NCBI RefSeq assembly: GCF_002803065.1
Contig: NZ_NNBL01000033.1
Span: forward strand, 1 to 64,000
Direction of reading: 5' to 3'
Origin: Streptomyces sp. CB01635
GTDB taxonomy: Bacteria > Actinomycetota > Actinomycetes > Streptomycetales > Streptomycetaceae
DNA: 64,000 nt
Every line of letters starts with the position of its first letter. Position 1 is the first letter of the stretch. The position numbers and the translations under genes are program-made. The notes under the pieces are model-generated. The model worked only from the letters and a program-made list of their open reading frames with translations, had not been told where the DNA came from and ran no database searches. Shown here piece by piece: positions 9,188 through 57,071 of this stretch.

Positions 9188-9198
9188 GTAGTGGGGGA

Positions 9199-10122
9199 AT
9201 GCGTTCCGTGGCGCTGAACACCGCGCGGCGCGCAGGGCGGCGGAGGTCGCGGCGGTTCACCCGCCGTGACCTCGTCGTTCTCGTCGTGCTCCTGGGAATA
9301 CCCGTACTGCTCGACATCGTCATCATCTGGGGGCCCACGCTCGCCTCCATCGGCCTGTCCTTCACGTCGTGGGACGGCATCGGCGACATCCACTGGGTCG
9401 GCGGAAAGAACTACCAGAACCTCGTCGACAACTATCCGCCGTTCTGGCCGGCCGTGCGCCACAACCTCCTGTGGCTCGCCTTTCTCGGTCTGATCGCCAC
9501 GCCCTTCGGCCTCTTCCTCGCCGTACTCATCGACCGGGGCGTGCGCTTCAGCCGCTTCTACCAGTCGACTCTCTACATGCCGGTCGTGCTCTCACTCGCC
9601 GTCGTCGGATTCATGGCGCAACTCGTCCTCGGCACCGACCAGGGCGTCGTCAACACCGTTCTCGACAACCACGAGAACCCGATCGACTGGCTGGGCGACT
9701 CGGACATCAACATCTGGATGATGATGCTGGCCGCGAGCTGGCGGCACACCGGATACGTGATGATCCTCTATCTCGCCGGCCTCAAATCCGTCGACCCGAC
9801 ACTGAAAGAAGCCGCAGCGATCGACGGCGCGAACGCCCGTCAGACCTTTTTCCGCGTCGTCTTCCCGACCCTGCGCCCTGTCAATGTCATCGTCGGCGTC
9901 ATCACCGTCATCGAGTCGCTGCGCGCCTTCGACATCGTCTACGCCGTGAACAAGGGCCGCAACGGCCTGGAACTGCTGTCCGTCCTCATCACGGACAACG
10001 TCATCGGCGAGGCCAGCCGCATCGGCTTCGGCTCGGCCATCGCGGTCGTCCTCCTCACGGTCTCCCTGGGATTCATCGTGACGTTCCTGGTCCAAGAGCT
10101 GCGAGGTGCGCGCGACCGATGA
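9199..10122 (+). CDS. Sugar ABC transporter permease (MalF type)
   Basis: A 307-residue inner-membrane permease with six hydrophobic helices and the EAA loop EAAAIDGANARQTFFRVVFPTL that docks the ATPase. It follows the binding protein by 11 bases with GGGGGAA before the ATG, and its stop overlaps the next start (ATGA at 10119-10122), showing translational coupling. An Arg-rich N-terminus precedes the first helix. Confidence 0.93.
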   Translation: MRSVALNTARRAGRRRSRRFTRRDLVVLVVLLGIPVLLDIVIIWGPTLASIGLSFTSWDGIGDIHWVGGKNYQNLVDNYPPFWPAVRHNLLWLAFLGLIATPFGLFLAVLIDRGVRFSRFYQSTLYMPVVLSLAVVGFMAQLVLGTDQGVVNTVLDNHENPIDWLGDSDINIWMMMLAASWRHTGYVMILYLAGLKSVDPTLKEAAAIDGANARQTFFRVVFPTLRPVNVIVGVITVIESLRAFDIVYAVNKGRNGLELLSVLITDNVIGEASRIGFGSAIAVVLLTVSLGFIVTFLVQELRGARDR

Positions 10123-31565: not shown

Positions 31566-31593
31566 GGTCACCGGTCACCGGTCACCGGTCGCC
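31566..31593. repeat. Heptamer tandem repeat GGTCACC at the DUF2877 stop
   Basis: GGTCACC is repeated exactly at 31566, 31573 and 31580, with a fourth variant GGTCGCC at 31587. The array spans the minus-strand stop codon (31575-31577) and starts 14 bases from the IS element end. Slippage would alter the C-terminus of the DUF2877 protein. Confidence 0.6.
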
Positions 31594-32468
31594 GCGCGCG
31601 CTGTGCTCAGGGCCACCGCGAGCACCCCACGCGCCAGATCGCCTCCCGAGTGGTGCCCGACGGCGAGCAGTTCGCGCAGAGCGGGTTCCAGGGGCACGGC
31701 CCCGCTCAGCGCCCGCAGGAACGCGTGGGCCTGCGGCACGCATTCGCCGCGCACCGCGTGCCGCAGGAGCGCCGCCGAGAGCAGCGGTGTGCGCAGGGTC
31801 GCGTCCGCGACCGCCCCCGAGAGGGGCGTGAGAGGGCCTCCCCACGCTCGGCTCGCCAGCAGTGCGCCGCACAGGATGTCGTCACCGGACGGGGTGAGTC
31901 CGGGGCCGAGGCCGACCAGTGCGCGGGCGGCCCGCCGGACTTCGCTCGACCTATCGGCGTGCAGGGCGTGGCGCAGGTCCGTCAGGCGGGGCGCCAATGG
32001 GGGCGGCAGGGGTTGGGCCAGGGCGTCGAGCAGCACCGTCGCCTGTCCGATGCGCGCCGGGTCCGGTGGGGAGGAGGCGTCCTGGACACGGGGCGGTGTC
32101 CAGGACGCCTCCGGCTCGAGGCGAACGGGCCCGATGATTACGCGGCCCGCCCCGACGCCGGCCCATGGTGTGTTCAGGTCCAACGGCCGGTCCGCCGACG
32201 AGAAGGGCAGGACGAGCGCGTTCGGCAGGCGGATCGCGTCCCTGGTCACCACGGCGAGCGCGGGTAACTCCCGGTCGCCGGTGGCGAGATGGACCGCGTA
32301 GCGGGTGGCGGCGACGACGCGGGCCGGCCGGAACGGACCGTGCAGCAGGGGGGCGACGGCCGTGCTGATGGTGCCGAGGTGTACGTGACTGACGGTGCCG
32401 AGGTGTACGTGCTCAGGGCGGGTCGCCCCGGCCCGTACAGAACCCCCGCCGGCCGGCGTACCCGTCAC
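31575..32468 (-). CDS. DUF2877 protein (YlbF/AllH-like oxamate carbamoyltransferase component)
   Basis: A 297-residue DUF2877 protein. The family signature GLGPGLTPSGDDILCGALLA is complete in the middle. In E. coli the relative YlbF (AllH) is encoded with FdrA and YlbE and is reported as part of oxamate carbamoyltransferase, which phosphorolyses oxalurate to oxamate and carbamoyl phosphate in anaerobic allantoin use. Here it is the last gene of the fdrA-DUF1116-DUF2877 operon, overlapping the upstream stop by 4 bases. The N-terminus holds a small VHLGT repeat and may be shorter than drawn. The C-terminus ends in heptamer repeats beside the IS element. Confidence 0.82.
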   Translation of the reverse strand: MTGTPAGGGSVRAGATRPEHVHLGTVSHVHLGTISTAVAPLLHGPFRPARVVAATRYAVHLATGDRELPALAVVTRDAIRLPNALVLPFSSADRPLDLNTPWAGVGAGRVIIGPVRLEPEASWTPPRVQDASSPPDPARIGQATVLLDALAQPLPPPLAPRLTDLRHALHADRSSEVRRAARALVGLGPGLTPSGDDILCGALLASRAWGGPLTPLSGAVADATLRTPLLSAALLRHAVRGECVPQAHAFLRALSGAVPLEPALRELLAVGHHSGGDLARGVLAVALSTARAATGDR

Positions 32469-33913
32469 TCCGCGGGCTCCGGGGGCACCTCGAAGGCGCT
32501 CAACGCGTCCGTGAAGCAGCGCATCGGGGCGTGGGTGAGGCCGGCACCGATCTGGCCGATGCCCGGCTCGCGGTGGGCGATGCCCGTGGTGATCACCGGT
32601 TCGAGGCCCGTGTCGACGACCTTGCGGATGTCGACGCCGACGGGGCTGCCGACGAAGTCGAGGCCGGGGAGCCGGTAGTCGCGGTGCCGGCCGACGGTGA
32701 GTGTCCCCATCTCCTGGCTGATGCGGCGGGCCCCTTCGGGCGTGCCGCCCACGAAGCCGACGATCGCCGGGGCGGCGGCCAGCGCGAACCCGCCCAGGCC
32801 GTGCATCTCGGTGATGGCGCTGTCACCGATGTCGGGATTGGCGTCGGCGGGTCCGTAACCGGCGAAGTAGAGGCCGTCCACGGGGGCGGCGGGTGCGATG
32901 AACCAGGTGTCGCCGAGGCCGCTGACGCGGATGCCGACGTCGACACCGTTACGCGCGAAGGCTGTGACGACCGTGGAGTGCGGCACACCGTGCCCGGCCA
33001 TGAGCGCCAACTTGCTCGCGGCCATCGAGAAGTTGAGGAACCAGTAGTTGTTGTCACGCAGGAAGTCCAGCGCCTCGATCCCGCCCAGGTCCGCATGCCG
33101 GGCGAGCACGGCGGAGAGTTCGCGGGTGAGCAGGGCGCTCGCCGCGGTGTTGCGGCTGTGGCACTCGTCGCCCATCTGAAGGGCCTGCGCGGTGACCGAC
33201 CGCAGGTTCACCGGCTCGGCGAGCGAGCCGATCGCAGCGCGCAGAGCGGGGCCGAGGCGCTCTCCCATCCAGCGCAGCCGCTCCATGACGTCGTCGCCGA
33301 GTGCGCCGTAGCGCAGGCAACGGCCCTGTCCCTCATTGAGGTTGGAGTACGCCCGAAGCCCCGTGGCCTCGTCCTCCACGACGAGCAGGGGCATGGACGC
33401 GGAGATGACGCCCGCCATCGGGCCGACTGCGTCGTGGTGATGACAGGGGGCGAAGCGGATGGCTCCCGCGGCGGCGAGCGCTTCCGCTTCCGGCGGCGTC
33501 GCCGCCCAGCCCTCCAGGAGTGCGGCGCCGACGACGGCGGCCTGCATCGGGCCGCACATGCGCTCCCACTCGATCGGCGGTCCGGCGTGCAACAGGAGTC
33601 TCTCCTGCGTCAGTTCAGGGATCAGCTCCCCGGCGGCGCGGACGTCGGTCCACATCGGCACGACGCCCAGGATCCGTTCGAGGGCTTCGGAGTTGGCGGC
33701 CTCGACGGCCGGGTGCGCGACCAGGCGGGCGAGCCCGGCGCCGAGTTCCGGATCACCGTAGGCCGGGGGGCGCCAGTCGACCGCGGTCACCGTCGCGCCC
33801 GCGGCCCGCGGCGGCCCGGCGAACGCGTCGACGCCGACGTTCACGACGTGCGGGACGCCGGTCAGGAGGCCCTGCGCGGGCACGGCCTGTGCGGGCATGG
33901 CCTGTGCGGTCAT
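32465..33913 (-). CDS. DUF1116 protein (YlbE/AllG-like oxamate carbamoyltransferase component)
   Basis: A 482-residue DUF1116 protein. Recognisable family segments are GPMQAAVVGAALLEGWA, FAPCHHHDAVGPMAGVIS, MGDECHSRNTAAS and FFNFS-type NNYWFLNFSMAASK. It pairs with FdrA in all the loci I know of and is assigned (YlbE/AllG) to oxamate carbamoyltransferase in E. coli. ATGA overlap with fdrA and a 4-base overlap with the DUF2877 gene show tight coupling, expected for subunits of one complex. The first 15 residues are a repetitive Met/Ala/Gln-Pro stretch, so the true start could be slightly downstream. Confidence 0.85.
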   Translation of the reverse strand: MTAQAMPAQAVPAQGLLTGVPHVVNVGVDAFAGPPRAAGATVTAVDWRPPAYGDPELGAGLARLVAHPAVEAANSEALERILGVVPMWTDVRAAGELIPELTQERLLLHAGPPIEWERMCGPMQAAVVGAALLEGWAATPPEAEALAAAGAIRFAPCHHHDAVGPMAGVISASMPLLVVEDEATGLRAYSNLNEGQGRCLRYGALGDDVMERLRWMGERLGPALRAAIGSLAEPVNLRSVTAQALQMGDECHSRNTAASALLTRELSAVLARHADLGGIEALDFLRDNNYWFLNFSMAASKLALMAGHGVPHSTVVTAFARNGVDVGIRVSGLGDTWFIAPAAPVDGLYFAGYGPADANPDIGDSAITEMHGLGGFALAAAPAIVGFVGGTPEGARRISQEMGTLTVGRHRDYRLPGLDFVGSPVGVDIRKVVDTGLEPVITTGIAHREPGIGQIGAGLTHAPMRCFTDALSAFEVPPEPAE

Positions 33914-35481
33914 GCGGTCTCTCCGATCCGGGAGGCGGGGGCGGGGGCAGACGCAGCTGGGGCGAGTACCAAGTCGTCACTGCTGGACAGGAGTTCGGCG
34001 CACACCCGCGCAGCGGTCGTACTGCTGTCGACGACATGCGCGCCCGCGGCGCGCAGAATCCGCCGCTGTGCGGTGAGTCCCTGCGGGTCGTCATCGGTGC
34101 CCACGACGAACGCGATCACCGGTGGTGCGTCGGCAGGAGCCTCGGCCAGCGCTCCGGCGAGAGCCGCTGCCGGATCCGGCGCGGCGCCGTGTCCGATGAC
34201 CACGTCGAGGACGACCGCGGCGCTGCGCGGGTCCGCGAGGGCTGCCCGCAGATACTCGGTGCGGACCGTGGGGTCGATCATCGGGTGGGGGCGCCCGGCG
34301 GTGAACTCGTCGTCGCCCAGGTCGAGTACGAGATGTCGGTCCGGGAGGCTCGGGGCCGCGCCCGGCGCGGGTGGGGGAGCGGAACGGGTGATGCCACCGA
34401 GCACCGGGCCGAGGAGCCAGGCCGCCTCGTGGGCGAACGTGCCGCCCGCGTACAGGGCCCGCAGCAGGCGCCGAGGCCGAGCGGGGGCGGGCAGCTTGGG
34501 CAGCTCTTCGCCGGGAGGGAGCGCCCCGCCGGCAGCAAGGGAGGCTGCGGACCGTGCCGCCTCGAAGAGGGTGGGAGCGAGCGTGACTCGGGCCGGAGCC
34601 GGGGAGGTCTCGTCCGTGCCGAGGAAGCAGGCCACCACCGGCTTCCCCAACGCGCCCGCGTGACATATCAGTTGCTGGGCCACGTGCGAGGCAGGCGGTT
34701 TGGACACGAGGACGATGACGTCCGTCGCGGGGTCCGCGGCCAGGGCGTCGAGCCCGGCCCGCATCGTCAGCCCGCCCACTTCCGCGCTCACGTCGCGGCT
34801 GCCCGTGCCGATCACATGGCTGACCCCGGCGCCCATGGAGTGCAGGAGGCTCGAGACCTGCTGCAGTCCTGTACCGGAGGCTCCGACCAGGCCGACGCAG
34901 CCCGCCCGCACTTCGTTGGCAAAGCCGAGGGGGATGCCGCTGATGACTGCGGTTCCGCAGTCCGGCCCCATGACGAGCAGCCCGCGGCGGGCGGCCTCCC
35001 GCTTCAGGAGCACCTCCTGCTCGATCGGCACGTGATCGCTGAAGACGAAGGCGTGCATGCCCAGGCGCAGCGCCTTGAGGGCTTCGGCGGCCGCGTACGG
35101 TCCGGGGGTGGAGATCAGCGCGAGACCTGCGTCGGCGGGAGCGCCGGCGAGCGAGCGCACCGGGGGCCCGGCGTCCGCACCGGCCTCCGGCCCTGCGCCC
35201 GGTCCCTCACCGGGACCGGACAGGGCATCCACCGCCAGGGCGAGGGCGGTGTCCACCGCGTCGGGTTCGCCGCGGACGGCGACGAGCAGGTCGTTGGGTC
35301 CGGCGTCGTGGCCCGGGGTGGTCAGCAGCCCCGACCGCGCGAGGACGTCGCGGTTGGCGGGTGTTCCCATCACGAGGCTGATGGTTTCGATGCCCGGCGG
35401 TTCGGCCAGGCGGGCGGCGACCCTCATGAGGGCGACGGAGTCGGCGTAGAGATCCTTGTGCACGGCGTTTCGTAGCACCAT
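33910..35481 (-). CDS. fdrA: FdrA-like acyl-CoA synthetase-fold protein (AllF-like)
   Basis: A 523-residue FdrA homologue: two succinyl-CoA-synthetase-type domains, with MGPDCGTAVISGIPLGF and VGLVGASGTGLQQVSSLLHSMGAGVSHVIGTGSRD forming the nucleotide/CoA-type loops, then a second ligase-like half (LVLDLGDDEF...PMIDP). A Pro/Gly/Ala-rich insert (about 85-110) is unusual and probably a surface loop. FdrA (AllF) is the large subunit assigned to oxamate carbamoyltransferase. Start 35481 opens the conserved MVLRNAVHKDLYADSV. It lies 133 bases downstream of pucR on the same strand, so the regulator and the three subunits may be one transcription unit. Confidence 0.86.
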   Translation of the reverse strand: MVLRNAVHKDLYADSVALMRVAARLAEPPGIETISLVMGTPANRDVLARSGLLTTPGHDAGPNDLLVAVRGEPDAVDTALALAVDALSGPGEGPGAGPEAGADAGPPVRSLAGAPADAGLALISTPGPYAAAEALKALRLGMHAFVFSDHVPIEQEVLLKREAARRGLLVMGPDCGTAVISGIPLGFANEVRAGCVGLVGASGTGLQQVSSLLHSMGAGVSHVIGTGSRDVSAEVGGLTMRAGLDALAADPATDVIVLVSKPPASHVAQQLICHAGALGKPVVACFLGTDETSPAPARVTLAPTLFEAARSAASLAAGGALPPGEELPKLPAPARPRRLLRALYAGGTFAHEAAWLLGPVLGGITRSAPPPAPGAAPSLPDRHLVLDLGDDEFTAGRPHPMIDPTVRTEYLRAALADPRSAAVVLDVVIGHGAAPDPAAALAGALAEAPADAPPVIAFVVGTDDDPQGLTAQRRILRAAGAHVVDSSTTAARVCAELLSSSDDLVLAPAASAPAPASRIGETA

Positions 35482-35614
35482 GGTTCCGACTCTAGGCAGC
35501 GGCCCGCCCCTTGCGGCATGGCTCGAAGTGCCAGAACCGGTCGGGCATTTACCGGCAACGGGTGACAGTGACCCGCCTTCGCGGGGGTCGGGGTCGGCCG
35601 CGAGGAGGGCTTGC

Positions 35615-37231
35615 TCAGCGCCGGTCGCGCGAGGAGAGCAACCGGTGGGCGTGGACGGCCAGTTCGGTCTGGAGCCGGGCCGTCGGCCGGCGTTCGAGAC
35701 CGCCGGTGAGGCGGTCGATCTGGCGCAGTCGATAGCGCAGGGTGTTGTAGTGGATGTGCAGCCGCGCGGCGGTGGCCACACCGTTTCGGTCCTCGAGGAG
35801 ATAGACGCCGAGGGTCTCGACGAGGCTGCCCTCGTGCTCGGCGTCATGGGCGAGCAGCGGGCCGAGCGCGTCGTCGACGAGGGCCGTGAGCTCCGCTGCG
35901 GGAAGCTGTCCGAGGAGCCGGTACACCCCCAGGTCCGCGTAGCCGCGAACGAAGTCGGGGCCGTGCAGTTCGCGGCCGAGCGTCAGGGTCTGCGCCGCTT
36001 CCTCGTAGCTGTGGTGGTAGTCGGTGAAGTCGTCCCGGACGGTCCCGGCGGCGACAGCCACGTCCCAGCCGGGGTGCGCGGCGGTGACAGCCGCATGCAG
36101 GGCCTGACATCGGCCGGCGAGTGACGGCCCCGGTTCCATCAGCAGGACGAGTCCGCTCTGGCTGCCCCAGATGATCGCGCCGGACCCGGCCGCCGGCCTT
36201 ACGAGCGGCAACAGCCGTTCCTCCAAGGCGAGTTCGGTGTCGGTGGGACTGCCGGTGCCGGTGGAGGCGACCTCGACGAGCACGACCGCGCGGGGCAGCC
36301 GCAGATTCCAGCCCATGGCCGCGGCCCGGCGCGCGGTCTCGGCGCGGTCGCGCGGCGGCCGGGAGACCAGCTCCATCAGGAGCAGCGTGCGGTAGCGCTG
36401 CTGGCGGCTGGCCAGGGCGCGTTCCTGGGCGGCGATGGTGGCGGCGACGGTCGTGGCGTGCTCCAGCGCCATTCGCTGATGAGTGTCGAGCTCATGCGTG
36501 GAAGCAAGGGCCGCCCCGGCCCCGTGGTCCGCGGCCTCCGCGTCGTCCCGCCACAGGGCCACGGCGCCGCTCGCGCCCGTGCCCGTCTCGATGGCGCGCT
36601 CGGCGGCGGGCGGACGGTCGGGAGGCGGGGAGCCCGCGGAGGCCAGGATCCACCCGTGCTCGTCGAGCACGGCGGCCGCGCAGCCGGACAGTTCGAGCAG
36701 TACGTTCATGAGTTCCTGGTAGGAGCCTCCGTCGAGGGCCACCGCCGTGAGCCGTTCATGGATGGCCCGCGAGCGCTCCAACTCCAGGGCCTGACGGTTC
36801 AGTACGGTGCCCAGCACCTCGGACAGGATGTCGTTGAACATGACGGCACCCGGCAACTCGACGACAGGGAAGCCGAGTTCGTCCGCCACCTCCAGCATCG
36901 CCGACGGCAACGCGGGCAGATAGGGACCCACCTTCACGGCCAGGGCGGCGAGGCCGCGCTCGGCGAGCACGGGGACCAGGTCGCTCAGGGCCTGTGCGTC
37001 GTCACGGACGGCGTAGGCGGTGGTCAGCAGCAGTTCACCGCCGCGCATCCAGCGCACGATGTCGGGGACTTCCATGATGTTGACGACGCGGATACGGCGG
37101 CCGCGGCCGCTCGCCCCGGCGACGAGTCGTGCGCCGCTGAGGCAGGGCAGTGCCAGCGCCTCGCTCACGGTCAGCCCGGGAGAGAGGCCGTGGGGGACGG
37201 TCGGGGCGGTGCCGATACCGATGCCTGTCAT
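35615..37231 (-). CDS. PucR family transcriptional regulator
   Basis: A 538-residue regulator with an N-terminal PucR domain (LTVSEALALPCLSGARLVAGASGRGRRIRVVNIMEVPDIVRW), a central GGDEF-like/CdaR module and a C-terminal HTH_30 helix pair (LVETLGVYLLEDRNGVATAARLHIHYNTLRYRLRQIDRLTG). PucR of Bacillus controls purine and allantoin catabolism. Here it sits at the divergent centre of the ureide/oxamate locus and is almost certainly its regulator, sensing a purine or pyrimidine breakdown product. It starts at ATG 37231, 171 bases from the divergent carbamate kinase start. Confidence 0.92.
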   Translation of the reverse strand: MTGIGIGTAPTVPHGLSPGLTVSEALALPCLSGARLVAGASGRGRRIRVVNIMEVPDIVRWMRGGELLLTTAYAVRDDAQALSDLVPVLAERGLAALAVKVGPYLPALPSAMLEVADELGFPVVELPGAVMFNDILSEVLGTVLNRQALELERSRAIHERLTAVALDGGSYQELMNVLLELSGCAAAVLDEHGWILASAGSPPPDRPPAAERAIETGTGASGAVALWRDDAEAADHGAGAALASTHELDTHQRMALEHATTVAATIAAQERALASRQQRYRTLLLMELVSRPPRDRAETARRAAAMGWNLRLPRAVVLVEVASTGTGSPTDTELALEERLLPLVRPAAGSGAIIWGSQSGLVLLMEPGPSLAGRCQALHAAVTAAHPGWDVAVAAGTVRDDFTDYHHSYEEAAQTLTLGRELHGPDFVRGYADLGVYRLLGQLPAAELTALVDDALGPLLAHDAEHEGSLVETLGVYLLEDRNGVATAARLHIHYNTLRYRLRQIDRLTGGLERRPTARLQTELAVHAHRLLSSRDRR

Positions 37232-37366
37232 GCACAGTCACTATGCGACAGCCGCGAGTAACCTGTAATACCCCGCGCGTAACTTCCATGTTTCCCACCA
37301 CGGTTGGGGACGCCCCTTGTCAGCGGGTGTCAACGGGGGGCCGCTCATCCTGGCGTCCGGTGCCCA

Positions 37367-37395
37367 TGACCGGCTCGGCCCGCCTCTCTTACGGT
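37367..37395 (+). promoter_or_regulatory. Promoter of the carbamate kinase operon (leaderless)
   Basis: TGACCG (37367-37372) and TACGGT (37390-37395) are 17 bases apart, and the ATG at 37403 follows the -10 by 7 bases, so transcription would begin at the start codon. Confidence 0.5.
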
Positions 37396-37402
37396 GACCC
37401 GC

Positions 37403-38434
37403 ATGACTCCCCGAGCCGTGCCGAGGACAGCGGTGGTCGCCATCGGCGGCAACGCGCTGCTGCGCGGTGGCACCCACGCCACCGTCGCCGAACAGGTCGA
37501 GGCCGCGCGCCGGCTCGCGTCCCCCGTAGTGGCGCTGGCCGACACGGGGTGGCGGGTCGTCGTCACCCATGGCAACGGCCCTCAGGTCGGATTCATCAAG
37601 CGCCGCGCAGAGCTCGCGGCGGCCCTGGCGCCCGAACTGCCCGCCGTCGGCCTCGACATGTGCGTGGCCGACTCGCAGGGCGGCCTCGGATACATCCTGG
37701 CTACCGCGATCGCGGGCCGCCTCCGGTCGCTCGGGCGCGCCGACGACCGGGTCGCCGCCCTGATCACCCACACCGTGGTGGACGCGCACGACGAGGCGTT
37801 CAGCCACCCGACCAAACCCATCGGAGCCTTCTGTCCGGCAGCCAGGGCAAGGGAGTTGGCGGACCTTCACAACTGGACCGTGGCGGAGGAGGGCGAGCGG
37901 GGCTGGCGGCGCGTGGTCCCGTCGCCCCGGCCGCGCCGGGTCCTGGAGACGGAGGCCGTACGGGCGCTGTCCTCGGCCGGATTCACGGTGATCGCGGCCG
38001 GCGGCGGCGGCATCCCCCTCGTAGAGACCGACGACGGCGGCTACCGGGGCGTCGAAGCCGTCATCGACAAGGACCTGACCTCGGCGCATCTCGCTGCGGA
38101 ACTCGGCGCGGAGCTGCTGGTCATCACCACCGGAGTGGAACGCGTCGCCGTCGACTACGGCCGGCCCACGCAGCGCTACCTCGACCGGCTCACCCACGAC
38201 GAGGCCGAACGGCTCCTGGCGCAGGGCCAGTTCCCGCCGGGCAGCATGGGCCCCAAGATCCGCGCCGCCCTCGACTTCCTGCGCGGCGCCCCCGGCCGTC
38301 AGGTGCTCATCACCTCACCGCGGCAGCTCGGCGCCGCCCTCGACGGGCGCGGCGGCACCCGGCTCGACAGCGAACCGGCGCGGACCACCGAAGAACCCCT
38401 CAACGGCACCGTCACGGCAGGGAGGCCGCAGTGA
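37403..38434 (+). CDS. Carbamate kinase (ArcC/AllK-like)
   Basis: A 343-residue amino-acid-kinase-fold enzyme of the carbamate kinase family. AIGGNALLRGG near the N-terminus, VVTHGNGPQVG, GLDMCVADSQGGLGY, AGGGGIPLV, VIDKDLTSAHLA and GSMGPKI are the diagnostic motifs. It makes ATP from ADP and carbamoyl phosphate, releasing ammonia and CO2. In this locus it would consume the carbamoyl phosphate made by FdrA-DUF1116-DUF2877, as AllK (YbcF) does in E. coli. ATG 37403 is favoured by the promoter position; a GTG at 37394 is in frame. It overlaps the next gene by 4 bases. Confidence 0.93.
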   Translation: MTPRAVPRTAVVAIGGNALLRGGTHATVAEQVEAARRLASPVVALADTGWRVVVTHGNGPQVGFIKRRAELAAALAPELPAVGLDMCVADSQGGLGYILATAIAGRLRSLGRADDRVAALITHTVVDAHDEAFSHPTKPIGAFCPAARARELADLHNWTVAEEGERGWRRVVPSPRPRRVLETEAVRALSSAGFTVIAAGGGGIPLVETDDGGYRGVEAVIDKDLTSAHLAAELGAELLVITTGVERVAVDYGRPTQRYLDRLTHDEAERLLAQGQFPPGSMGPKIRAALDFLRGAPGRQVLITSPRQLGAALDGRGGTRLDSEPARTTEEPLNGTVTAGRPQ

Positions 38435-39498
38435 TACTCGAAGCGGGACAGGGCCCGATCGACGGCACGCACTATCTGCGGGCCACACCGGAGACCGCCG
38501 GCTGGGGGCGGCTGCCCTGCCGGACCACCGCGCCGGCGCTCACGATCGACTCCGGTGACAGCGTCACCTTCGACACCGTCTCGCACGAGGGCATCCTGGA
38601 GGACCAGGGGCGCGATCCGGCCGCCTTCTTCGGGCGGTACGGCATCGCCGCGACCGAAGTGCTGTCCGACGCCCGCCTGTTGGCCAAGTCCCCGCCGCCA
38701 CGGGACCCGGAGGGGGACGGGCCTCACGTCGTCAGTGCGCCCGTCCACATCAGGGGCGCCGAGCCGGGCGACCTCCTCAAGGCCGAAGTGCTGTCCCTGC
38801 ACCGGCGCGCCGACTACGGCGTCATCTCCAGCCGTCACGGCCGTGGCGCCCTGCCCGATGAATTCTCCTGCACAGGGCCGGAGTTCACCTTCTGCGCGGT
38901 GGAGCGTGCGGACGGCCGGGACGTCGGCGTGATCCGCTACGGCAACGGCCGGGCGGCGGCCCGGTTCCCGCTGCGGCCCTTCATGGGCATCATGGGCGTG
39001 GCCACCGACACGGACGGGCCGGAGCACTCCGTGCCGCCAGGACGGCACGGTGGCAACCTCGACATCAAGGACCTCGCGACGCACTCCACGCTCTATCTGC
39101 CCGTACAGACGGCCGGCGCGGGCTTCTACACCGGAGATCCGCACTACGCCCAGGGCAACGGCGAAGTCGCCCTCACCGCCCTGGAGGCGCCGCTGCGCGC
39201 CACGTTCCGGCTCACCCTCCTCAAGGGCGCACGGGCCCGCGCGGCCGCCGCGGCCCTCACGCATCCCTTCGGCGAGACCGACCGGCACTGGATCCCCGTG
39301 GGGCTGCACGAGGACCTCGACGAGGCGATGCGGGAAGCGGTCCGCGCCGCAGTCCGCTTCCTCACGGACCGCTTCGGCATGGACGGGCCGACCGCGTACG
39401 CCTACCTGAGCGCGGCGGCGGACTTCGAGATCTCGCAGGTCGTCGACCAGGTCCAGGGAGTGCACTGCCTCATCCGCAAGGCGGACTTCCCCGACTGA
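38431..39498 (+). CDS. Acetamidase/formamidase family amide hydrolase
   Basis: A 355-residue FmdA_AmdA family protein. Typical segments: VTFDTVSHEG, VSAPVHIRGAEPGDLLKAEVL, PFMGIMGVATD, PGRHGGNLDIKDL, YLPVQTAGAGFYTGDPHYAQGNGEV (metal-binding Asp/His region) and AYAYLSAAADFEISQVVD. Such enzymes hydrolyse short amides to acid plus ammonia. In this operon, oxamate (the amide of oxalate) or formamide/malonamate is a logical substrate. GTG 38431 overlaps the carbamate kinase stop, showing translational coupling and a shared pathway. Confidence 0.88.
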   Translation: MILEAGQGPIDGTHYLRATPETAGWGRLPCRTTAPALTIDSGDSVTFDTVSHEGILEDQGRDPAAFFGRYGIAATEVLSDARLLAKSPPPRDPEGDGPHVVSAPVHIRGAEPGDLLKAEVLSLHRRADYGVISSRHGRGALPDEFSCTGPEFTFCAVERADGRDVGVIRYGNGRAAARFPLRPFMGIMGVATDTDGPEHSVPPGRHGGNLDIKDLATHSTLYLPVQTAGAGFYTGDPHYAQGNGEVALTALEAPLRATFRLTLLKGARARAAAAALTHPFGETDRHWIPVGLHEDLDEAMREAVRAAVRFLTDRFGMDGPTAYAYLSAAADFEISQVVDQVQGVHCLIRKADFPD

Positions 39499-39586
39499 TC
39501 CAGTTCCATCCAGTCCGATCGCGCCTGCCGCGTATGCCATTCACCCCCCGCATCCGCCCCCGCCCATCCATCCACCGGGAGCCCGT

Positions 39587-40837
39587 ATGCCTCAACTGAT
39601 ACTGCGTCAAGCGCGCGTCGAGGACGCCCGGTCGCCCTGCGACGTGGTGATCGACGGCGGCCGGGTGCGAGCCGTCGGTGACGCCTCGGGCCAGGACGCC
39701 GACGAGGTGATCGACTGCGCGGGCCGGGTCGTCCTGCCCGGCTTCGTCGAACCGCATCTGCATCTCGACAAGGCCCTCCTGGACGGCGTACGAAGCAGTC
39801 CCGACGGAACCCTCGCCGGAGCGATCGCGGTGACCGGCGAACTGAAGAGCGCGTTCACGCACGAGGACGTCCTGGCTCGTGCGCGGCGCGTCCTCGAGGC
39901 GGCGGTCCTCAACGGCACGACGGCGATCCGCGCCCATCCGGACGTCGACCCGATCGCGGGGCTGCTCGGCGTCGAGGTCCTGCTCCAACTCCGTGAGGAG
40001 TACGCGGATGTGGTGGACCTCCAGATCGTGGCGTTCCCCCAGGAGGGCGTCCTGCGCGCACCCGGCACCGAGAAGCTGCTGATCGCGGCGCTGGCGGCGG
40101 GCGCCGACGTGGTGGGCGGCTGCACGTACAACGAGGCCACCCTGGACGACTGCCACCGTCACGTCGAGCTCGTACTCGACCTCGCCGCACAGCACGGAAT
40201 TCCGGCCGATCTGCACGCCGACTTCGCCGACGACGCGTCCGACCCCCGGTACGCGCTCGCCGAGTTCATCGCCGGTGAGACCGTGCGCCGGGGCCTGGGG
40301 GGCCGGGTGACGCTCGGCCATATGACCTCGCTCGGCGGCCGGGAGCCGGCGGACCGGGCGCGGGCGATGGCGGCACTCGCCGGCGCGGGCGTCGCCGTCG
40401 TGCCGCTCCCGGCGACCGACCTGCACCTCGGGGGGCGGCGCGACACCCGGTCGGTCCGGCGGGGGATCGCTCCGGTCCGGGAGCTGTGGGACCACGGCGT
40501 GCTCGCCGCCTGCTCCTCCAACAACATCCGCAACGCCTTCACCCCGTTCGGGCGCGCGGACCCCCTGGACACGGCACTCCTGCTGGCGCAGACCGGCCAT
40601 CTGTCCGGACCCGTCGACCTTCATCGGGTCCTTCGCATGGTGACGCACGACGCGGCCCGCGTCATCGGGGTCGCCGACGACTACGGCGTACGGCCCGGCG
40701 CCCGCGCCGACCTGGTGGTCCTCGACACGCAGGTCTACGACGACATCGTCCTGGACCGGCCCGAACGCGCCCATGTCGTCAAGGCGGGAAAGGTGGTGGC
40801 CCGCACGACCAGGACCAGCGAACTCCTCCTCCACTGA
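39587..40837 (+). CDS. Cytosine-deaminase-like amidohydrolase with substituted metal Asp
   Basis: A 416-residue amidohydrolase-superfamily protein most like the CodA/AtzC group. The strand-1 motif PGFVEPHLHLDKA (H57, H59), LHADF (His) and GHMTSLGG (His) are present. At the strand-8 position, where CodA and AtzC have a metal Asp (HDD or SDN), this protein reads SSNNIRNAFTPFG, with Asn. The same Asn variant occurs, as I recall, in a set of annotated cytosine deaminases of unknown substrate. It probably opens or deaminates a cyclic amide feeding the carbamoyl pathway, if catalytic. It follows the formamidase by 88 bases. Confidence 0.82.
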   Translation: MPQLILRQARVEDARSPCDVVIDGGRVRAVGDASGQDADEVIDCAGRVVLPGFVEPHLHLDKALLDGVRSSPDGTLAGAIAVTGELKSAFTHEDVLARARRVLEAAVLNGTTAIRAHPDVDPIAGLLGVEVLLQLREEYADVVDLQIVAFPQEGVLRAPGTEKLLIAALAAGADVVGGCTYNEATLDDCHRHVELVLDLAAQHGIPADLHADFADDASDPRYALAEFIAGETVRRGLGGRVTLGHMTSLGGREPADRARAMAALAGAGVAVVPLPATDLHLGGRRDTRSVRRGIAPVRELWDHGVLAACSSNNIRNAFTPFGRADPLDTALLLAQTGHLSGPVDLHRVLRMVTHDAARVIGVADDYGVRPGARADLVVLDTQVYDDIVLDRPERAHVVKAGKVVARTTRTSELLLH

Positions 40838-40913
40838 GCCTCCGCTTCCCTCCCTCGCACCCGCCCCCGCACGGCACCGCGCTCTGCCATCCGACTCCAG
40901 CAGAGGAATCCCC

Positions 40914-41504
40914 ATGCGCGAACGCCTCTCTCACGAAATCGTTGCCTCCGTACTCGCCGGTCTCACGGCGTTCATCGGAGGGACCGCGCTCCATCTCCCG
41001 CCCTGGGCGATCTTCATCTCGTGGGCGGCCGTCTTCGCACTCGGAGGGCCGAGCTGGGCGAACGCACGCAGGCTGTGGTGCACGATGCCCGCCGGCTCCG
41101 CCTTCGCCCTGGTCATCGTGCTGATCGACCAGCACGTGGGCACGGCGTTCGGCGACAGCCAGTTCGCCCGGAACACGGTGCTGGCCCTGGTGATCATGGT
41201 CGTCAACACCGTCCTGATGTACACGGGCCGCATCAAGGTGTTCTCGCTGATTCCCGGCATGTTCCTCGGCTTCGCCAGCTACTTCGCCACGTTCTTCGGC
41301 GGCTTCGGGTACAAGCCGGGCAACATATGGGCGGCTTGGGTCTGCGTGGTCGCGATGAACGCGCTCGGGCCGGTCTTCGCCTATCTGTCCAACCGGCTCA
41401 TGTACCCGATCCTCTCGCCGGTGCCGACGTCGGTCGTGGCCTCCGCGGGCCCTGTGCACCACGACGGCCGCACACCGCCGGCGGAAACCGCACCGGCCGA
41501 GTGA
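40914..41504 (+). CDS. DUF1097 inner-membrane protein (YcdZ-like)
   Basis: A 196-residue membrane protein with five or six hydrophobic helices and a polar C-terminal tail. GGPSWANARRLWCTMPAG and SLIPGMFLGFASYFATFFGG are the DUF1097 family hallmarks. As the last gene of the operon it is the only membrane protein of the locus and may transport the ureide, oxamate or an ion, or act as an accessory channel; this is inferred from position. ATG 40914 follows AGAGGAA. Confidence 0.82.
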   Translation: MRERLSHEIVASVLAGLTAFIGGTALHLPPWAIFISWAAVFALGGPSWANARRLWCTMPAGSAFALVIVLIDQHVGTAFGDSQFARNTVLALVIMVVNTVLMYTGRIKVFSLIPGMFLGFASYFATFFGGFGYKPGNIWAAWVCVVAMNALGPVFAYLSNRLMYPILSPVPTSVVASAGPVHHDGRTPPAETAPAE

Positions 41505-41513
41505 GGCCGTCCG

Positions 41514-42434
41514 TCACTGCCCGGGCAGCCGCTCCACCGCGAACGCCCTGCCCGGGTTGTCGACGAGGATCCGGTCCACCAACTCCTTACCCAGGGCCAG
41601 TTCGAGCCGTGGGCGGACGCGGCGCAGGAGGTACGGCATCCCGGGCCCGCCGCTCACCGAACGCGCCCCGGCGGTCGTCGTGTCGCCGCCGAGCAGGAGC
41701 CGCTCGCCGAACCCCGCTTCGGCGAGCGCCGCCATCGCGTCCGGCATCCGCCAGTCCGTCGCGTGGTTGGCGCGCGACGGCCCGTCGAAGGCGAGATACG
41801 CGCCGGACTCGGCGGCCTGGCGGTGCACGGCGAAGTCGGGGGAGCGGTTGAGGTGCCCGAGCACGACCCGCTCCGGCGCCACCCCCAACTCCCCGCACAG
41901 AAGGTCGAGTACGTCCAGTACGCCCGTACCCAGTTCGTGGTGGACGGCGATCGGCGCGCCCGTCGCGTGATGGGCCTCGGCTGCGGCCCGCATCGTCCAC
42001 ACCGCGTGCGCGTCGAGGGCGTGGAAGCCGCCCGCGACCTTGATGAGCCCGGCACGCACACCGCTGTCGCCGATCCCGTCCGTGAGTTCCCGCACGAACA
42101 CGTCGGCGAGGACGGGGCGCAGCCGGTCGAGCAACTCCGGCGTGTAGTGGGCGGCTTGATGAAGTCCCGTCGCGGCCACGATGCGTACACCCGTCGTGGT
42201 CGACAGCTCGGGCAGCAGCTCGGCCCGGCGCCCCAGACCGTGCGGCGTCCACTGGACGACCGCGCCGCCGCCCGCCTCCCGGTAGGCGCGCAGTTCCGCC
42301 TCGGCGGCTGCCGCGTCGTCGAGTTCCTGGCCGGGGAGCAGCGGGCTGCGGAAGAAGAGGTGGTCGTGCGCGTCGCACACACCGAGTTCCTCCGGCGCCA
42401 CGTCCCCGAGCACGGTCCGTACGGTCGCGGTCAC
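41514..42434 (-). CDS. Phosphotriesterase-family metal hydrolase
   Basis: A 306-residue PTE-like TIM-barrel hydrolase with the full binuclear site: H23-x-H25 in CDAHDHLFF, a carbamylatable Lys in LIKVAGG, His in AVHHELG, His in LGHLNRSPD and Asp in LLGGDTT. Bacterial homologues are lactonases or carboxylesterases rather than true phosphotriesterases. GTG 42434 overlaps the DUF4865 stop (42431-42433), so the two are coupled; the TetR gene upstream completes a three-gene operon. It converges with the DUF1097 gene. Confidence 0.88.
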   Translation of the reverse strand: MTATVRTVLGDVAPEELGVCDAHDHLFFRSPLLPGQELDDAAAAEAELRAYREAGGGAVVQWTPHGLGRRAELLPELSTTTGVRIVAATGLHQAAHYTPELLDRLRPVLADVFVRELTDGIGDSGVRAGLIKVAGGFHALDAHAVWTMRAAAEAHHATGAPIAVHHELGTGVLDVLDLLCGELGVAPERVVLGHLNRSPDFAVHRQAAESGAYLAFDGPSRANHATDWRMPDAMAALAEAGFGERLLLGGDTTTAGARSVSGGPGMPYLLRRVRPRLELALGKELVDRILVDNPGRAFAVERLPGQ

Positions 42435-43015
42435 CACTGCCTCCCCCGGGGAAGCCGGTCGCGCTCGGGGGCGCTCAGGTGCAGCACCTCGTAGAGGTCG
42501 CCCGGCGTGTCCGGCGACGCGTGGTCCCAGAGGGAGAAGGTGAGCAGCTCCCAGCGGCGCGGGTCGACGGCGACTGCCGCGCACACCGCCCCGTCCTGCC
42601 CGGCGACGCGGGCCGCGTCGCGCACGGCGGCGTCCGTCACTTCGGCGAGCGGCGCCTGCCCGGTGAGGGGGGTGCGGCGGCGCACCGCGCTCCTCGGGGT
42701 GGCGTGCGAGGCCGGGCACTCCTCGTATGCGAGTCCGGCCCAGTGCTGCACCTCGGGCCGGCCGAAGTCGTCCACGATGCCCTGGAAACCTGGCCCCCAC
42801 AGGAACGAGTTCATGCCCTGAGGGGTGTTCCACAGGTAGCACGGCGCGTACTGGTTCACGGGTGACCCGGCGACGCCGCGCTCCCGCATCAGATAGGCCT
42901 TGAGCCCGAGTCCGGGGAAGTCGTCCAGGAGATGCCCCCTGGTCTCCACCCGCTTGCGGATGATGGCCATGTCGTAGTCGGCGGGCAGCGTGATCTCGTA
43001 CTGCATCGCGTGCAC
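42431..43015 (-). CDS. DUF4865 family protein (monooxygenase-like small protein)
   Basis: A 194-residue protein matching DUF4865: MQYEITLPADYDMAIIRKRVETRGHLLDDFPGLGLKAYL, the conserved APCYLWNTPQGMNSFLWGPGFQGIV core and a second related half. The family is predicted to have a dimeric alpha-beta barrel-like fold, and its biochemistry is unknown to me. Genes of this family often follow a TetR regulator. GTG 43015 is preferred because GAGGAG is 10 bases upstream; ATG 43006 is the alternative. It lies between the TetR gene and the phosphotriesterase-like gene. Confidence 0.82.
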   Translation of the reverse strand: MHAMQYEITLPADYDMAIIRKRVETRGHLLDDFPGLGLKAYLMRERGVAGSPVNQYAPCYLWNTPQGMNSFLWGPGFQGIVDDFGRPEVQHWAGLAYEECPASHATPRSAVRRRTPLTGQAPLAEVTDAAVRDAARVAGQDGAVCAAVAVDPRRWELLTFSLWDHASPDTPGDLYEVLHLSAPERDRLPRGRQW

Positions 43016-51635: not shown

Positions 51636-53975
51636 GTGGAGCGTGACACGGCGGACGAGACCGCCCTCGAACTTCTGGTCCACGGCGTAGGGGGCACCAC
51701 CCCGGACGTGATGCTCAACGACCCGCGCACGGTCCGGGTCTCCGGCGACGACACGGCCGCGGTCTACCGCCGCGCCGACGACGTCGACGCGGAGGAACGC
51801 CCCGACGACTACCGGGGCAAGCCCGTCCCCGAGGCGTACGTCTGGTGCAACCTCACGTCCGGCAACGGCTCGCGCGCCTTATGGCTGCTGCTCCTGCCGT
51901 TCATGGTGGTCAACCTCGCCCACTGGATGCGCCCCAACGCCCACCGCCGCACGCGGACCGTGCGGGCCTACGGACTCCTGGTGCGCCTCGTCGGCCTCAG
52001 CCTCACCGTCCTCCTGGTCGCCGCCGCCTGCGAGGTGGCGCTCGACCTGGTGGCCTGGCAGTGCGCGGGCACGCACGCGTGCGCCGAGGGGCGCTCCTGG
52101 CTCGGCTTCCTGTCGGTCGACGCGCACGGACACGGCGGCTGGTGGAGCCAGCCCGGCCGTCGCCTCGCCCTCGCCGCCCTCGTCCCGGCCGCCGTCACGG
52201 GACTCCTCTGGTATCTCTCCCACCGCACCTGGGGCGCGTACGAGTCCCAGCAGCCGCTGCCCCACCAGCCCGACCCGGAGGAGGAGGCCCCGACCAACGC
52301 GCTCGGCCGTCCGGGGTTCTGGTACGGCCGCCGTCTTGTCGCGCGGCTGCGCGCCGCGCACACCGCCGCGGGCCTGCTCACGGTGGTGGCCGCCGTCGGC
52401 ACCTCGGCCGCCCGCTTCGACCGTGAGAGCGGCGGCCCCGTCCTCCTCGACGTGCTCGGCCGCATCCTCGACGGCGCGCTCGTCGTGGGCACCGCCATCG
52501 TCGTCTGGGTGGTGTGCCGCAGGGGCCGCAGCGAGAACACGGTCGACCGCACCCTCGACCGGACCCTCGTCCGCCTCCTGCCCGCGGCAGCCCTCGCCCT
52601 CCTGGTACTCACGTTCCTGTACGCGGGCTGGTCGCGCCCCGAGTGGCGCTCGCACGGGCGCCTGCCCGGAGACGCGACGTTCGGCGGGATCGTCCTCGTC
52701 CAGGGCGCCGTGATCGTGGCGCTCGCCGTGGTCGCCCGCGCCATCCACCGCCGCGCCCGCGACTCCCGTGCGGCTCTGCGCGGCCTCGGCGGACCCGCGA
52801 CCGCGATGCTCGCCTGCGCCCTGGGCGGTGTGATGTCCGGGGGAGTGGCCCAGCGTGTCGCCGACTGGCTGGACGGCTCCGGCACGCCGGGCGCCGACGG
52901 CACCATCGAAGGACCGCCCGTCCTCCTGTCCTGGCAGGCCTCCGTGATCCCGCCCCTGCTGATCGTCGTCGCCGTGGTGTGCGCCGTGCTCGCCCAGCGC
53001 ACCATGCGGCTCAAGCGCCGCGAGATGGCCACGGTCGCGACCGACTACCCGGGGGAGCCCGAGGACGCCGCCCGCACCAGCCGCATCGCGGGCACGCGCG
53101 CGCGTGCCGCCCTCACCGACGAGGCGCCCATGATCATCGGCGTGGTCTCCACGGTGACCCTCCTCCTCGGCGCGGGAGCCCTCACGGGCGCGTGGGCGAC
53201 CCACCAGGTCCCGGGCCGGGCGGCACAGGGCACATACGACATCGTGGAAGGCGCCGCGCAGACCGCGCAGGCGATGGGCTCCTGGCTCATCGGCCTCGGC
53301 TTCATACTCTTCGTCACCTGGGGAAGGCGCGCCTACCGCGACGCGTCGGCCCGCCGCACGATCGGCATCCTGTGGGACGTCGGCACGTTCTGGCCGCGCG
53401 CCGCACACCCCTTCGCGCCGCCCTGCTACGCGGAGCGCGCCGTGCCCGACCTGACCTGGCGCATGGCCACCTGGATTCGTACCACGGGCGGCCGCCTCGT
53501 CCTGTCGGGGCACTCCCAGGGCAGCGTCCTCGCTGCCGCGGCCGCCTGGCAGCTGCATCCCACGGTCCGCCGACGCGTCGCCCTGCTCACCTACGGCTCG
53601 CCTCTGGAGCGCCTCTACGGGCGCTGGTTCCCGGCCCACTTCGGCCCCGCCGCGCTCGGCGCCCTGCACCGCCAGGTCGACTGCTGGCGCAATCTGCACC
53701 GCACCACCGACCCGATCGGCGGCCCCGTCCGGCTGCCCGGCGAGGACGGCCCCCAGGTCGATCACCCGGCACTGAAGGATCCGCTCGCCTACGGCCGGAC
53801 CGAGCAACACCCGCTGCCCGCACCGATCCTGGGCCACTCCGACTACCAGGCCGACCCCGTCTTCGCCGAGGAACGGGCCCGCCTCCTCGCCAGGCTGCGC
53901 CCGGAGGTCCCGGGGCCACGCCCGGACGGCGAGCCCGCCGCGCCTCAGGGCAGCGCGGGCAGGTCGTCCTCGTAG
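51636..53975 (+). CDS. Polytopic membrane protein with C-terminal GHSQG serine-hydrolase domain
   Basis: A 779-residue protein. An N-terminal ELLVHGVGGTTPDVML segment looks like the first strand and oxyanion region of an alpha/beta-hydrolase (LVHGVGG). About eight membrane helices fill residues 80-565 with large Arg-rich loops. Then comes TTGGRLVLSGHSQGSVLAAAAAWQL with the nucleophile elbow G-H-S-Q-G, a YGSPLERLYGRWFP segment and an HSDYQADP region that could hold the acid/His. The split hydrolase interrupted by a membrane module is unusual; lipid or cell-envelope esterase activity is a guess. GTG 51636. Its 3' end overlaps the convergent AAA gene by 31 bases. Confidence 0.82.
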   Translation: MERDTADETALELLVHGVGGTTPDVMLNDPRTVRVSGDDTAAVYRRADDVDAEERPDDYRGKPVPEAYVWCNLTSGNGSRALWLLLLPFMVVNLAHWMRPNAHRRTRTVRAYGLLVRLVGLSLTVLLVAAACEVALDLVAWQCAGTHACAEGRSWLGFLSVDAHGHGGWWSQPGRRLALAALVPAAVTGLLWYLSHRTWGAYESQQPLPHQPDPEEEAPTNALGRPGFWYGRRLVARLRAAHTAAGLLTVVAAVGTSAARFDRESGGPVLLDVLGRILDGALVVGTAIVVWVVCRRGRSENTVDRTLDRTLVRLLPAAALALLVLTFLYAGWSRPEWRSHGRLPGDATFGGIVLVQGAVIVALAVVARAIHRRARDSRAALRGLGGPATAMLACALGGVMSGGVAQRVADWLDGSGTPGADGTIEGPPVLLSWQASVIPPLLIVVAVVCAVLAQRTMRLKRREMATVATDYPGEPEDAARTSRIAGTRARAALTDEAPMIIGVVSTVTLLLGAGALTGAWATHQVPGRAAQGTYDIVEGAAQTAQAMGSWLIGLGFILFVTWGRRAYRDASARRTIGILWDVGTFWPRAAHPFAPPCYAERAVPDLTWRMATWIRTTGGRLVLSGHSQGSVLAAAAAWQLHPTVRRRVALLTYGSPLERLYGRWFPAHFGPAALGALHRQVDCWRNLHRTTDPIGGPVRLPGEDGPQVDHPALKDPLAYGRTEQHPLPAPILGHSDYQADPVFAEERARLLARLRPEVPGPRPDGEPAAPQGSAGRSSS

Positions 53976-56350: not shown

Positions 56351-56465
56351 GGCTTTGTCGTGCCCCCACCTCGTCGTACGCGGGTCCTCGCTGCGTTCCC
56401 CGCGGCGAAGGTGGGTCCACCGTAGCGTGCGCGAAGGACGGGAGTTGACCGGAGCGGAAGGCCGC

Positions 56466-57071
56466 TCAGCTGCCGGTCCCTGTCCTGCCCCAGTCCGGGC
56501 CCGCCTTGTCCCAGGCGCGGTCCCAACGGTCGTACCGGCGGCGCACCATGCGCCACACGACCAGGCGCCGGGCGCCCTCGACGAGCCCCGCCACGGCCGC
56601 CGCGGTCCCGAATCCGGCCAGCGCGGCGTGTGTTGTCGCCGTCGCGTTGTCCAGCGGGCGGCCGGCGACCTGACCCGTGGCATCGACCCACAGCGTGAAC
56701 CGGTCGCCCGGATGCGGGGTCTTGAGGCTCGACAGGACGCGGCCCGTGTGCTTGACGCCGTCGGGTCCCTTCCAGTCGGCGACGACCCTGCTGTGAGCGT
56801 CTCTCGCCGTGGACGTCTCGGGGTCGGGGTCCAGCGGCGGCTGGGGCAGCTTCCGTACGACCGTCGCCGGAACCTCCCGGCGGTCCTTGCGCTGTTCCTG
56901 CACGGACTGCATCAGGGCGCCCCGCGCCAGGGTCCCCGTCGCGACGCCGATGAGCGGTGCGACAACGAGGATCAGCATCAGCGCCACCAGCGCGACCCAG
57001 GCCTCGGCGAGGTCGGTCGCGCGGCGCAGCGGATTGTGCCGCCAGCGCCAGAGTCCGGCGATTGCCCGCAC
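56466..57071 (-). CDS. Rv1733c family membrane protein
   Basis: A 201-residue protein with two membrane helices (about 25-48 and 148-168) flanking an external domain (VVADWKGPDGVKHTGRVLSSLKTPHPGDRFTLWVD). The layout and the RHNPLRRATDLAEAWVA start match the Rv1733c family, which in mycobacteria is a dormancy-associated membrane antigen; the Streptomyces members are uncharacterised. GTG 57071 is preferred because GGAAGGGGG lies upstream at the right spacing. It is on the same strand as the beta-helix/AAA gene but 115 bases upstream. Confidence 0.82.
   Translation of the reverse strand: MRAIAGLWRWRHNPLRRATDLAEAWVALVALMLILVVAPLIGVATGTLARGALMQSVQEQRKDRREVPATVVRKLPQPPLDPDPETSTARDAHSRVVADWKGPDGVKHTGRVLSSLKTPHPGDRFTLWVDATGQVAGRPLDNATATTHAALAGFGTAAAVAGLVEGARRLVVWRMVRRRYDRWDRAWDKAGPDWGRTGTGS

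Follow-up and report, generated by a model that had tools for sequence, protein, structure and literature searches.

A conserved eight-gene locus of Streptomyces sp. CB01635 as a candidate unit for oxalurate breakdown

Architecture and conservation of the locus

The genome of Streptomyces sp. CB01635 (10.06 Mb, 61 contigs; closest relatives Streptomyces) contains a locus of eight genes on contig NZ_NNBL01000033.1. The first 64,000 nucleotides of this contig were analyzed and are called the window; coordinates in the locus are window positions. The genes form two divergent arms, allHGF-pucR on the minus strand, and carbamate kinase, an FmdA/AmdA-family amidase (Fmd), a CodA-like protein and a DUF1097 protein on the plus strand.

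Gene families were assigned by Pfam and NCBIfam scans. On the minus strand, the AllH-like protein (DUF2877; 31575-32468), the putative small subunit of an oxalurate-splitting carbamoyltransferase, scored 77 bits against PF11392 (cut-off 25). Beside it are encoded an AllG-like protein (DUF1116; 32465-33913), with 287 bits to PF06545 and 384 bits to PDB 3clq, and an AllF-like protein (FdrA; 33910-35481 after correction of the start), which reached 438.7 bits against NF004760 (cut-off 433) and 261 bits against the FdrA of PDB 3dmy. The PucR-family regulator in the same arm (35615-37231) was recognized by PF07905 (121 bits), HTH_30 (58 bits) and GGDEF_2 (54 bits). The plus strand encodes a carbamate kinase of the allK/arcC type (37394-38434; NF009007, 339 bits, cut-off 266; PDB carbamate kinases, at most 236 bits), Fmd, the proposed oxamate amidohydrolase (38431-39498; PF03069, 100.6 bits, cut-off 27), a predicted CodA/AtzC-fold protein of an 'NN' subfamily (CodA-NN; 39587-40837; PF07969, 123.5 bits), and the DUF1097 membrane protein (40914-41504, start corrected; PF06496, 85 bits), a candidate transporter of the pathway with four hydrophobic segments (Kyte-Doolittle). 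Each of the eight genes is present with an intact frame and is of coding type, with a GC content at third codon positions of 0.85–0.91. The 4-base overlaps of allH with allG, allG with allF, and the kinase gene with fmd are all genuine. The divergent locus described in the initial annotation is confirmed.

The divergently facing pair is pucR and the kinase gene (37231/37394), and the allFGH arm begins downstream of pucR with a promoter region of its own. When the promoter regions of relatives were aligned for both arms, a common element, TGTCA-N5-TGYCR, was obtained. In the window, one operator-like site lies upstream of allF (TGTCACCCGTTGCCGG; 35552-35567, minus strand) and the other upstream of the carbamate kinase gene (TGTCAGCGGGTGTCAA; 37318-37333, plus strand). 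They are the only two matches to the pattern TGTCANCNGKTGYCRR in the 64 kb, one before each arm, compared to 0.01 expected, a value that is no independent test, since the pattern was derived from these same two sites. The repeated placing of the element in relatives is the better argument: a looser form occurs at both corresponding places in the loci L061, L073, L074, L075 and L077, and in four of these five it is found nowhere else within about 19 kb. Such a common operator-like motif would fit co-regulation of both arms. A scan for sigma-70 promoters and terminators found nothing.

The full set of eight genes recurs together in the same five loci, and partial sets, interrupted by contig ends or Ns, were found in L053, L059/L088, L063, L064/L078 and L076. 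Unit-bearing genomes comprise about ten Streptomyces and one metagenome-assembled genome (MAG) of the Propionibacteriales (L076). The kinase is conserved in all window-type loci that reach that far. Genes flanking the unit vary among more distant strains. Because the same genes recur together while their flanks differ, the set represents more than chance. Genome G452 still has the genes that flank the L075 cluster, but the unit is reduced to an AllG remnant (L062, 9733-11469), which marks the loss of the unit in one lineage. The locus is a real, coherent and mobile unit, probably catabolic.

The pathway had also been considered undescribed in actinomycetes. AllG is present in 49 of 396 sampled Actinomycetota genomes and in 14 of 296 genomes of the genus, so that allFGH per se is unremarkable in actinomycetes, and the window genome itself carries a second locus, of the yah type. 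This claim of rarity is therefore too strong. The locus varies the known AllFGH theme in a new way, adding a new partner amidase and a member of an unusual CodA subfamily. In the open-licence papers searched, we found no description of the gene combination in actinobacteria, and no paper that brings together oxalurate and formamidase.

The carbamoyltransferase and its relatives

The E. coli enzymes AllFGH (oxamic transcarbamylase, OXTCase) and AllK have been biochemically established with purified proteins (PMC11326118, PMC9843812). In the window, the AllF, AllG and AllH families are co-encoded by overlapping genes, all above their cut-offs, with the carbamate kinase beside them, and the annotation as an AllFGH-type carbamoyltransferase with a catabolic carbamate kinase is supported. 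The window AllG belongs to a clade of 12 sequences, 11 of them from Streptomyces and Propionibacteriales relatives, with a support of 100/100; E. coli AllG (50% identity) lies outside it. We considered the window AllFGH as the orthologue of the E. coli enzyme and rejected this assignment, as the AllG tree separates the two. Because the clades differ, the acceptor is not readable by homology, which would give an acylurea phosphorolase with its kinase, and not which acylurea is split. Of the assignment to oxalurate and oxamate in the initial annotation, the family stands, whereas homology does not reach the acceptor.

Identities of the window AllG to plasmid-borne AllGs (K. pneumoniae pHS08204, Aminobacter pSR8, E. 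coli pAPEC) range from 51 to 55%. In the tree, these plasmid proteins and the YahG group also lie outside the window clade. On the conjugative plasmids pHS08204 (L195, 4458-9372) and pSR8 (L196, 7409-13783), allFGH-arcC modules occur with ring-opening amidohydrolases of the AtzD/barbiturase type. The chemistry of this family would supply other acylureas, and the arrangement suggests phosphorolysis of acylureas other than oxalurate. The avian E. coli plasmid pAPEC-O2-MS1657-1 (L202, 5786-13964) encodes a cysteine hydrolase, DUF2877, FdrA, DUF1116, ArcC, a cytosine permease and a LysR protein in one block, and 96 plasmid records from Escherichia gave AllG matches. Paenarthrobacter aurescens has, on its atrazine plasmid pTC1 (L203, 8986-11782), adjacent genes for a truncated DUF1116 protein, a kinase-like protein and AtzC. 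At the yah-type locus of the window genome (L033; G000:C23:1170500-1190400), AllG groups with E. coli YahG (100/100). This locus encodes AllH, AllF and AllG, a divergent carbamate kinase, NCS1 permeases, a YahJ-like amidohydrolase and an oligopeptide-type ABC transporter.

The partner proteins Fmd and CodA-NN

Fmd of the window carries the motifs HGGNLD and GDPHYAQGNGE, which correspond to HGGN and GDxHxxxGxGE of the family. It scored 71 bits against the curated FmdA formamidase model, far below the cut-off of 500. It matches PF03069 only and not the GGT-type Ntn hydrolases (PF01019) to which HpxW belongs, and it would resemble HpxW by function, not by family.

A scan of 84,980 genomes for the Fmd family yielded 316 relatives, of which 80 were kept; 84 Fmd loci were compared. 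At 21 loci, Fmd is accompanied by a class-V aminotransferase, an allantoate-amidohydrolase-like protein and an amidase/AtzH protein. They come from Microbacterium, Agromyces, Blastococcus, Propionicimonas, Sediminihabitans and MAGs, and many of them also encode OHCU decarboxylase and allantoinase. Relatives about 55% identical to the window Fmd open such uric-acid (hpx-like) operons. At the Agromyces locus L120, which has its Fmd homologue at 8983-10083, allantoate amidohydrolase, OHCU decarboxylase and allantoinase pass the curated cut-offs, and the aminotransferase scored 580 bits to PDB 3nnk, the Klebsiella ureidoglycine-glyoxylate aminotransferase. The product of the latter enzyme is oxalurate. 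In the Klebsiella operon, hpxW stands with hpxX, hpxY and hpxZ (PMC3560190), and according to PMC5270733, citing Hicks and Ealick 2016, HpxW is an oxamate amidohydrolase.

One branch of the Fmd tree sets off the window clade (9 rows) and another the hpx-type clade (23 rows), and L083 represents a third lineage, in which the amidase likewise adjoins Fmd. AllG is found at 11 of the 84 loci and the amidase/AtzH protein at 24, among them all 21 with the aminotransferase; no locus has both. As the two never occur together, they may be interchangeable: the simplest reading is that AllFGH with the kinase, or else the amidase/AtzH protein, would split oxalurate, and that Fmd would use the common product oxamate. 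Genome G050 encodes Fmd, an amidase and CodA-NN, and has no AllG. A role of Fmd as oxamate amidohydrolase is favoured by this independent comparative evidence, and the removal of oxamate by a formamidase-like protein, proposed in the initial annotation, is independently strengthened by the hpx-like clusters in Microbacterium, Agromyces and Blastococcus. We know of no oxamate amidohydrolase other than HpxW.

For CodA-NN, an AlphaFold model (predicted template modelling score 0.83, mean predicted local distance difference test 79) gave TM scores of 0.85–0.87 to AtzC and CodA, which predicts the TIM-barrel fold of these enzymes. The protein retains HxH, His214, His246 and Gln156 (E. coli CodA numbering), as expected of a family member. 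Asn replaces the metal ligand Asp313 as well as Asp314 and Asp317, and Phe stands at the catalytic Glu217. The Asn residues at 313, 314 and 317 are found in all clade sequences that reach this position, and residue 217 is Phe or Leu. The loop bearing the motif has low confidence in the model. An alternative alignment, shifted by a 3-residue insertion in the Streptomyces and G050 sequences, would keep Glu217 as Asp; it was rejected, since Phe or Leu occupies the position in proteins that lack the insertion, such as those of E. faecalis and Agrobacterium. Phe is thus the better reading at 217, and the change of Asp313 to Asn is unambiguous. Because the metal-ligand Asp and the catalytic Glu are replaced, ordinary ring hydrolysis by CodA-NN is doubtful. 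The opening of a ureide by this amidohydrolase, as initially annotated, is the weakest step of the pathway.

A single branch (82/97; recovered in 85% of bootstraps) sets the 13 NN sequences apart, and the clade spans three phyla with HxH, His214 and His246 intact. The low-scoring row L208 is a mistranslation, and its motif carries no meaning. Its signature, NN..N with Phe or Leu, occurs in G050 (L180; 64% identity to the window protein), on a Rhodococcus plasmid (L198), in E. faecalis (L205), Agrobacterium (L207, L219), Sinorhizobium (L215) and R. leguminosarum (L217). On the Rhodococcus plasmid, CodA-NN is found with Fmd and the amidase/AtzH protein, and in E. faecalis (L205, 1998-13218) with PucR, a fused FdrA-DUF1116 protein, DUF2877, ArcC and AllD. 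In Agrobacterium, Sinorhizobium and R. leguminosarum, an HpxW-like GGT-family protein is close or adjacent; the one at L207 matches both chains of PDB 5hft, which we take to be HpxW, with 179 and 154 bits. CodA-NN is a previously unremarked CodA subfamily that, judging from these neighbourhoods, probably belongs to oxalurate metabolism. Speculatively, its substrate could be parabanate, giving oxalurate, or 5-hydroxyhydantoin, giving ureidoglycolate, the AllD substrate in E. faecalis.

CodA relatives elsewhere (Aminobacter, YahJ, AtzC, L033, L185, L189, Ensifer) retain the Asp. Another CodA branch (L041-L043, L185) has Leu for His214 and keeps the Asp residues; at L041-L043 it stands beside AllFGH. 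The E. faecalis operon is a candidate for the classical oxamate fermentation of the 'Streptococcus allantoicus' type.

Proposed function and comparison with known systems

On balance, we lean towards the view that the eight genes form a single unit for nitrogen scavenging, controlled by PucR, and that the acylurea it consumes is most probably oxalurate. The analysis showed the gene families and their intact frames, the conservation of the genes as a unit, the motif shared upstream of both arms, the genomic ties of Fmd and CodA-NN relatives to oxalurate/oxamate modules, and the fact that AllFGH and the amidase/AtzH protein exclude each other. We infer which acylurea is used, all reactions of the strain, and what CodA-NN and DUF1097 do. 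AllFGH would convert oxalurate and phosphate to oxamate and carbamoyl phosphate, and the kinase would use carbamoyl phosphate and ADP to yield ATP, NH3 and CO2. Fmd would hydrolyze oxamate to oxalate and NH3, in place of the unrelated HpxW of Klebsiella. Upstream, CodA-NN would generate or channel oxalurate, or a precursor, from a cyclic or branched ureide, and the membrane protein DUF1097 is possibly the uptake system. Allantoinase is clear in the window genome (632 bits). In L053 and L076, an NCS1-type cytosine/purine/allantoin permease lies between allF and pucR, which points to a ureide-like substrate. As no oxalate sink was found, oxalate would be the end product; the unit probably serves nitrogen supply, with one ATP gained and oxalate as waste.

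Several observations weigh against this proposal. The cluster encodes no enzyme found to feed oxalurate, and a search of the rest of the genome gave none above curated cut-offs. The genome has no UGXT orthologue (best match 30% identity) and no AllD over the cut-off (an Ldh_2 protein scored 116 instead of 496 bits), and ureidoglycine-glyoxylate aminotransferase and allantoate amidohydrolase, typical of hpx operons, are absent from the cluster. Oxalate decarboxylase is missing from the genome, and all matches to oxalyl-CoA decarboxylase are below the cut-off. The window AllG is as far from E. coli AllG (50%) as from the AtzD-linked plasmid AllGs (53–55%). Neither oxalurate module is present at about 50 of the 84 Fmd loci, and no oxalurate gene is nearby at 5 of the 12 CodA-NN loci outside the window cluster. 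The circular motif expectation and the residues replaced in CodA-NN belong on the same side. As a whole, the pathway initially annotated is partly supported.

A bolder version is a tentative proposal with a modest chance of being right. Here, CodA-NN would be a new enzyme of ureide breakdown that makes oxalurate or ureidoglycolate from a cyclic precursor such as parabanate or 5-hydroxyhydantoin without the near-universal metal-ligand Asp, and Fmd-type proteins would be oxamate amidohydrolases of a second family, unrelated to the first. The two would complete an energy-conserving oxalurate-to-oxalate route in Streptomyces, and Rhodococcus, Enterococcus and rhizobia would have related modules.

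It is unlikely, but conceivable, that another acylurea is the substrate: AllFGH would release carbamoyl phosphate either from barbiturate-derived ureidomalonate, leaving malonamate, or from biuret, leaving urea, and Fmd would hydrolyze the resulting amide (malonamate to malonate). This would agree with the AtzD/barbiturase-type ring openers beside AllFGH and arcC on pHS08204 and pSR8, with the slightly closer relation of the window AllG and kinase to Aminobacter (55%) than to E. coli (50% and 41%), with the retained pyrimidine-binding residue Gln156 of CodA, and with the NCS1 permeases in L053 and L076; in Skermanella, a distant Fmd relative (37%) adjoins a ring-opening amidohydrolase. However, no window-type cluster contains an AtzD-type ring opener. 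Among Fmd contexts in which the pathway is defined, the ureidoglycine-glyoxylate aminotransferase operons are nearest, and CodA-NN relatives accompany AllD and HpxW-like proteins; all of this points to the C2 series.

Less likely still, Fmd is a general hydrolase of small amides (formamide/acetamide) and CodA-NN serves as a partner that is non-catalytic or allosteric, so that only AllFGH and the kinase handle a ureide and the arms are joined for general nitrogen scavenging. Fmd is indeed a PF03069 member often found apart from oxalurate genes, and CodA-NN has lost residues that make CodA an enzyme. Yet the formamidase score of Fmd is low, its gene is translationally coupled to the kinase gene, two Fmd lineages are independently tied to the amidase/AtzH module, and the NN signature forms one clade with intact His residues across three phyla. 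Very improbable is a synthetic carbamoyltransferase that makes a carbamoylated small molecule at a non-catabolic locus. The assay of E. coli OXTCase was run towards synthesis (PMC11326118), but the catabolic-type kinase and the amidase in one transcription unit, the PucR regulator, and the permeases in related clusters fit breakdown, and biosynthetic genes are absent from the conserved unit.

Around the locus, a TnpB/IS605 OrfB-type gene (PF01385, PF07282; 30672-31472) immediately adjoins the end of allH, as would fit a mobile neighbourhood. A phosphotriesterase-family gene (41514-42842), convergent with the DUF1097 gene, is kept only in near relatives (L061, L073). Further along the window (53945-56683), a large protein combines right-handed beta-helix repeats with a C-terminal AAA ATPase domain.

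If the oxalurate pathway is correct, a whole subfamily labelled 'acetamidase/formamidase' gains a function, and aerobic actinomycetes have an oxalurate route that yields carbamoyl phosphate and hence ATP where the hydrolytic amidase route yields none. In that case, the mis-annotated 'cytosine deaminase' subfamily with its altered metal site would also become a concrete assay target. Compared to CodA and AtzC (N-isopropylammelide hydrolase), the window protein shares the predicted fold, HxH, His214, His246 and Gln156, but has Asn at 313, 314 and 317 and Phe at 217. Likewise, Fmd shares PF03069 and its motifs with FmdA/acetamidase, but not the curated score. E. coli yahDEFGHIJ and L033 resemble the window in that AllH/F/G-like proteins are encoded in one operon with a CodA/AtzC-fold amidohydrolase and a carbamate kinase-like protein; in contrast, L033 AllG groups with YahG, Fmd is missing there, and the catalytic Asp/Glu positions are conserved in both YahJ and the L033 amidohydrolase.

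With Klebsiella hpx (HpxJ, HpxWXYZ), the locus would share the flow from oxalurate via oxamate to oxalate, and the actinobacterial hpx-like operons carry the 55% relative of its Fmd. HpxW, however, is of the GGT family (PF01019) and Fmd of PF03069, the window cluster has no aminotransferase, and AllFGH with the kinase takes the place of the HpxXY-type amidase, which would save one ATP. With E. coli allFGHK, the window shares the three subunit families and the carbamate kinase, whereas its AllG forms a separate clade, AllD is missing from the cluster, Fmd, CodA-NN and DUF1097 are added, and PucR replaces AllS/ArcA. Oxamate is a dead-end product of allantoin use in E. coli and inhibits lactate dehydrogenase (PMC8550087, PMC12535856); E. 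coli allFGHK leaves it unused, whereas the window cluster has a proposed oxamate amidase.

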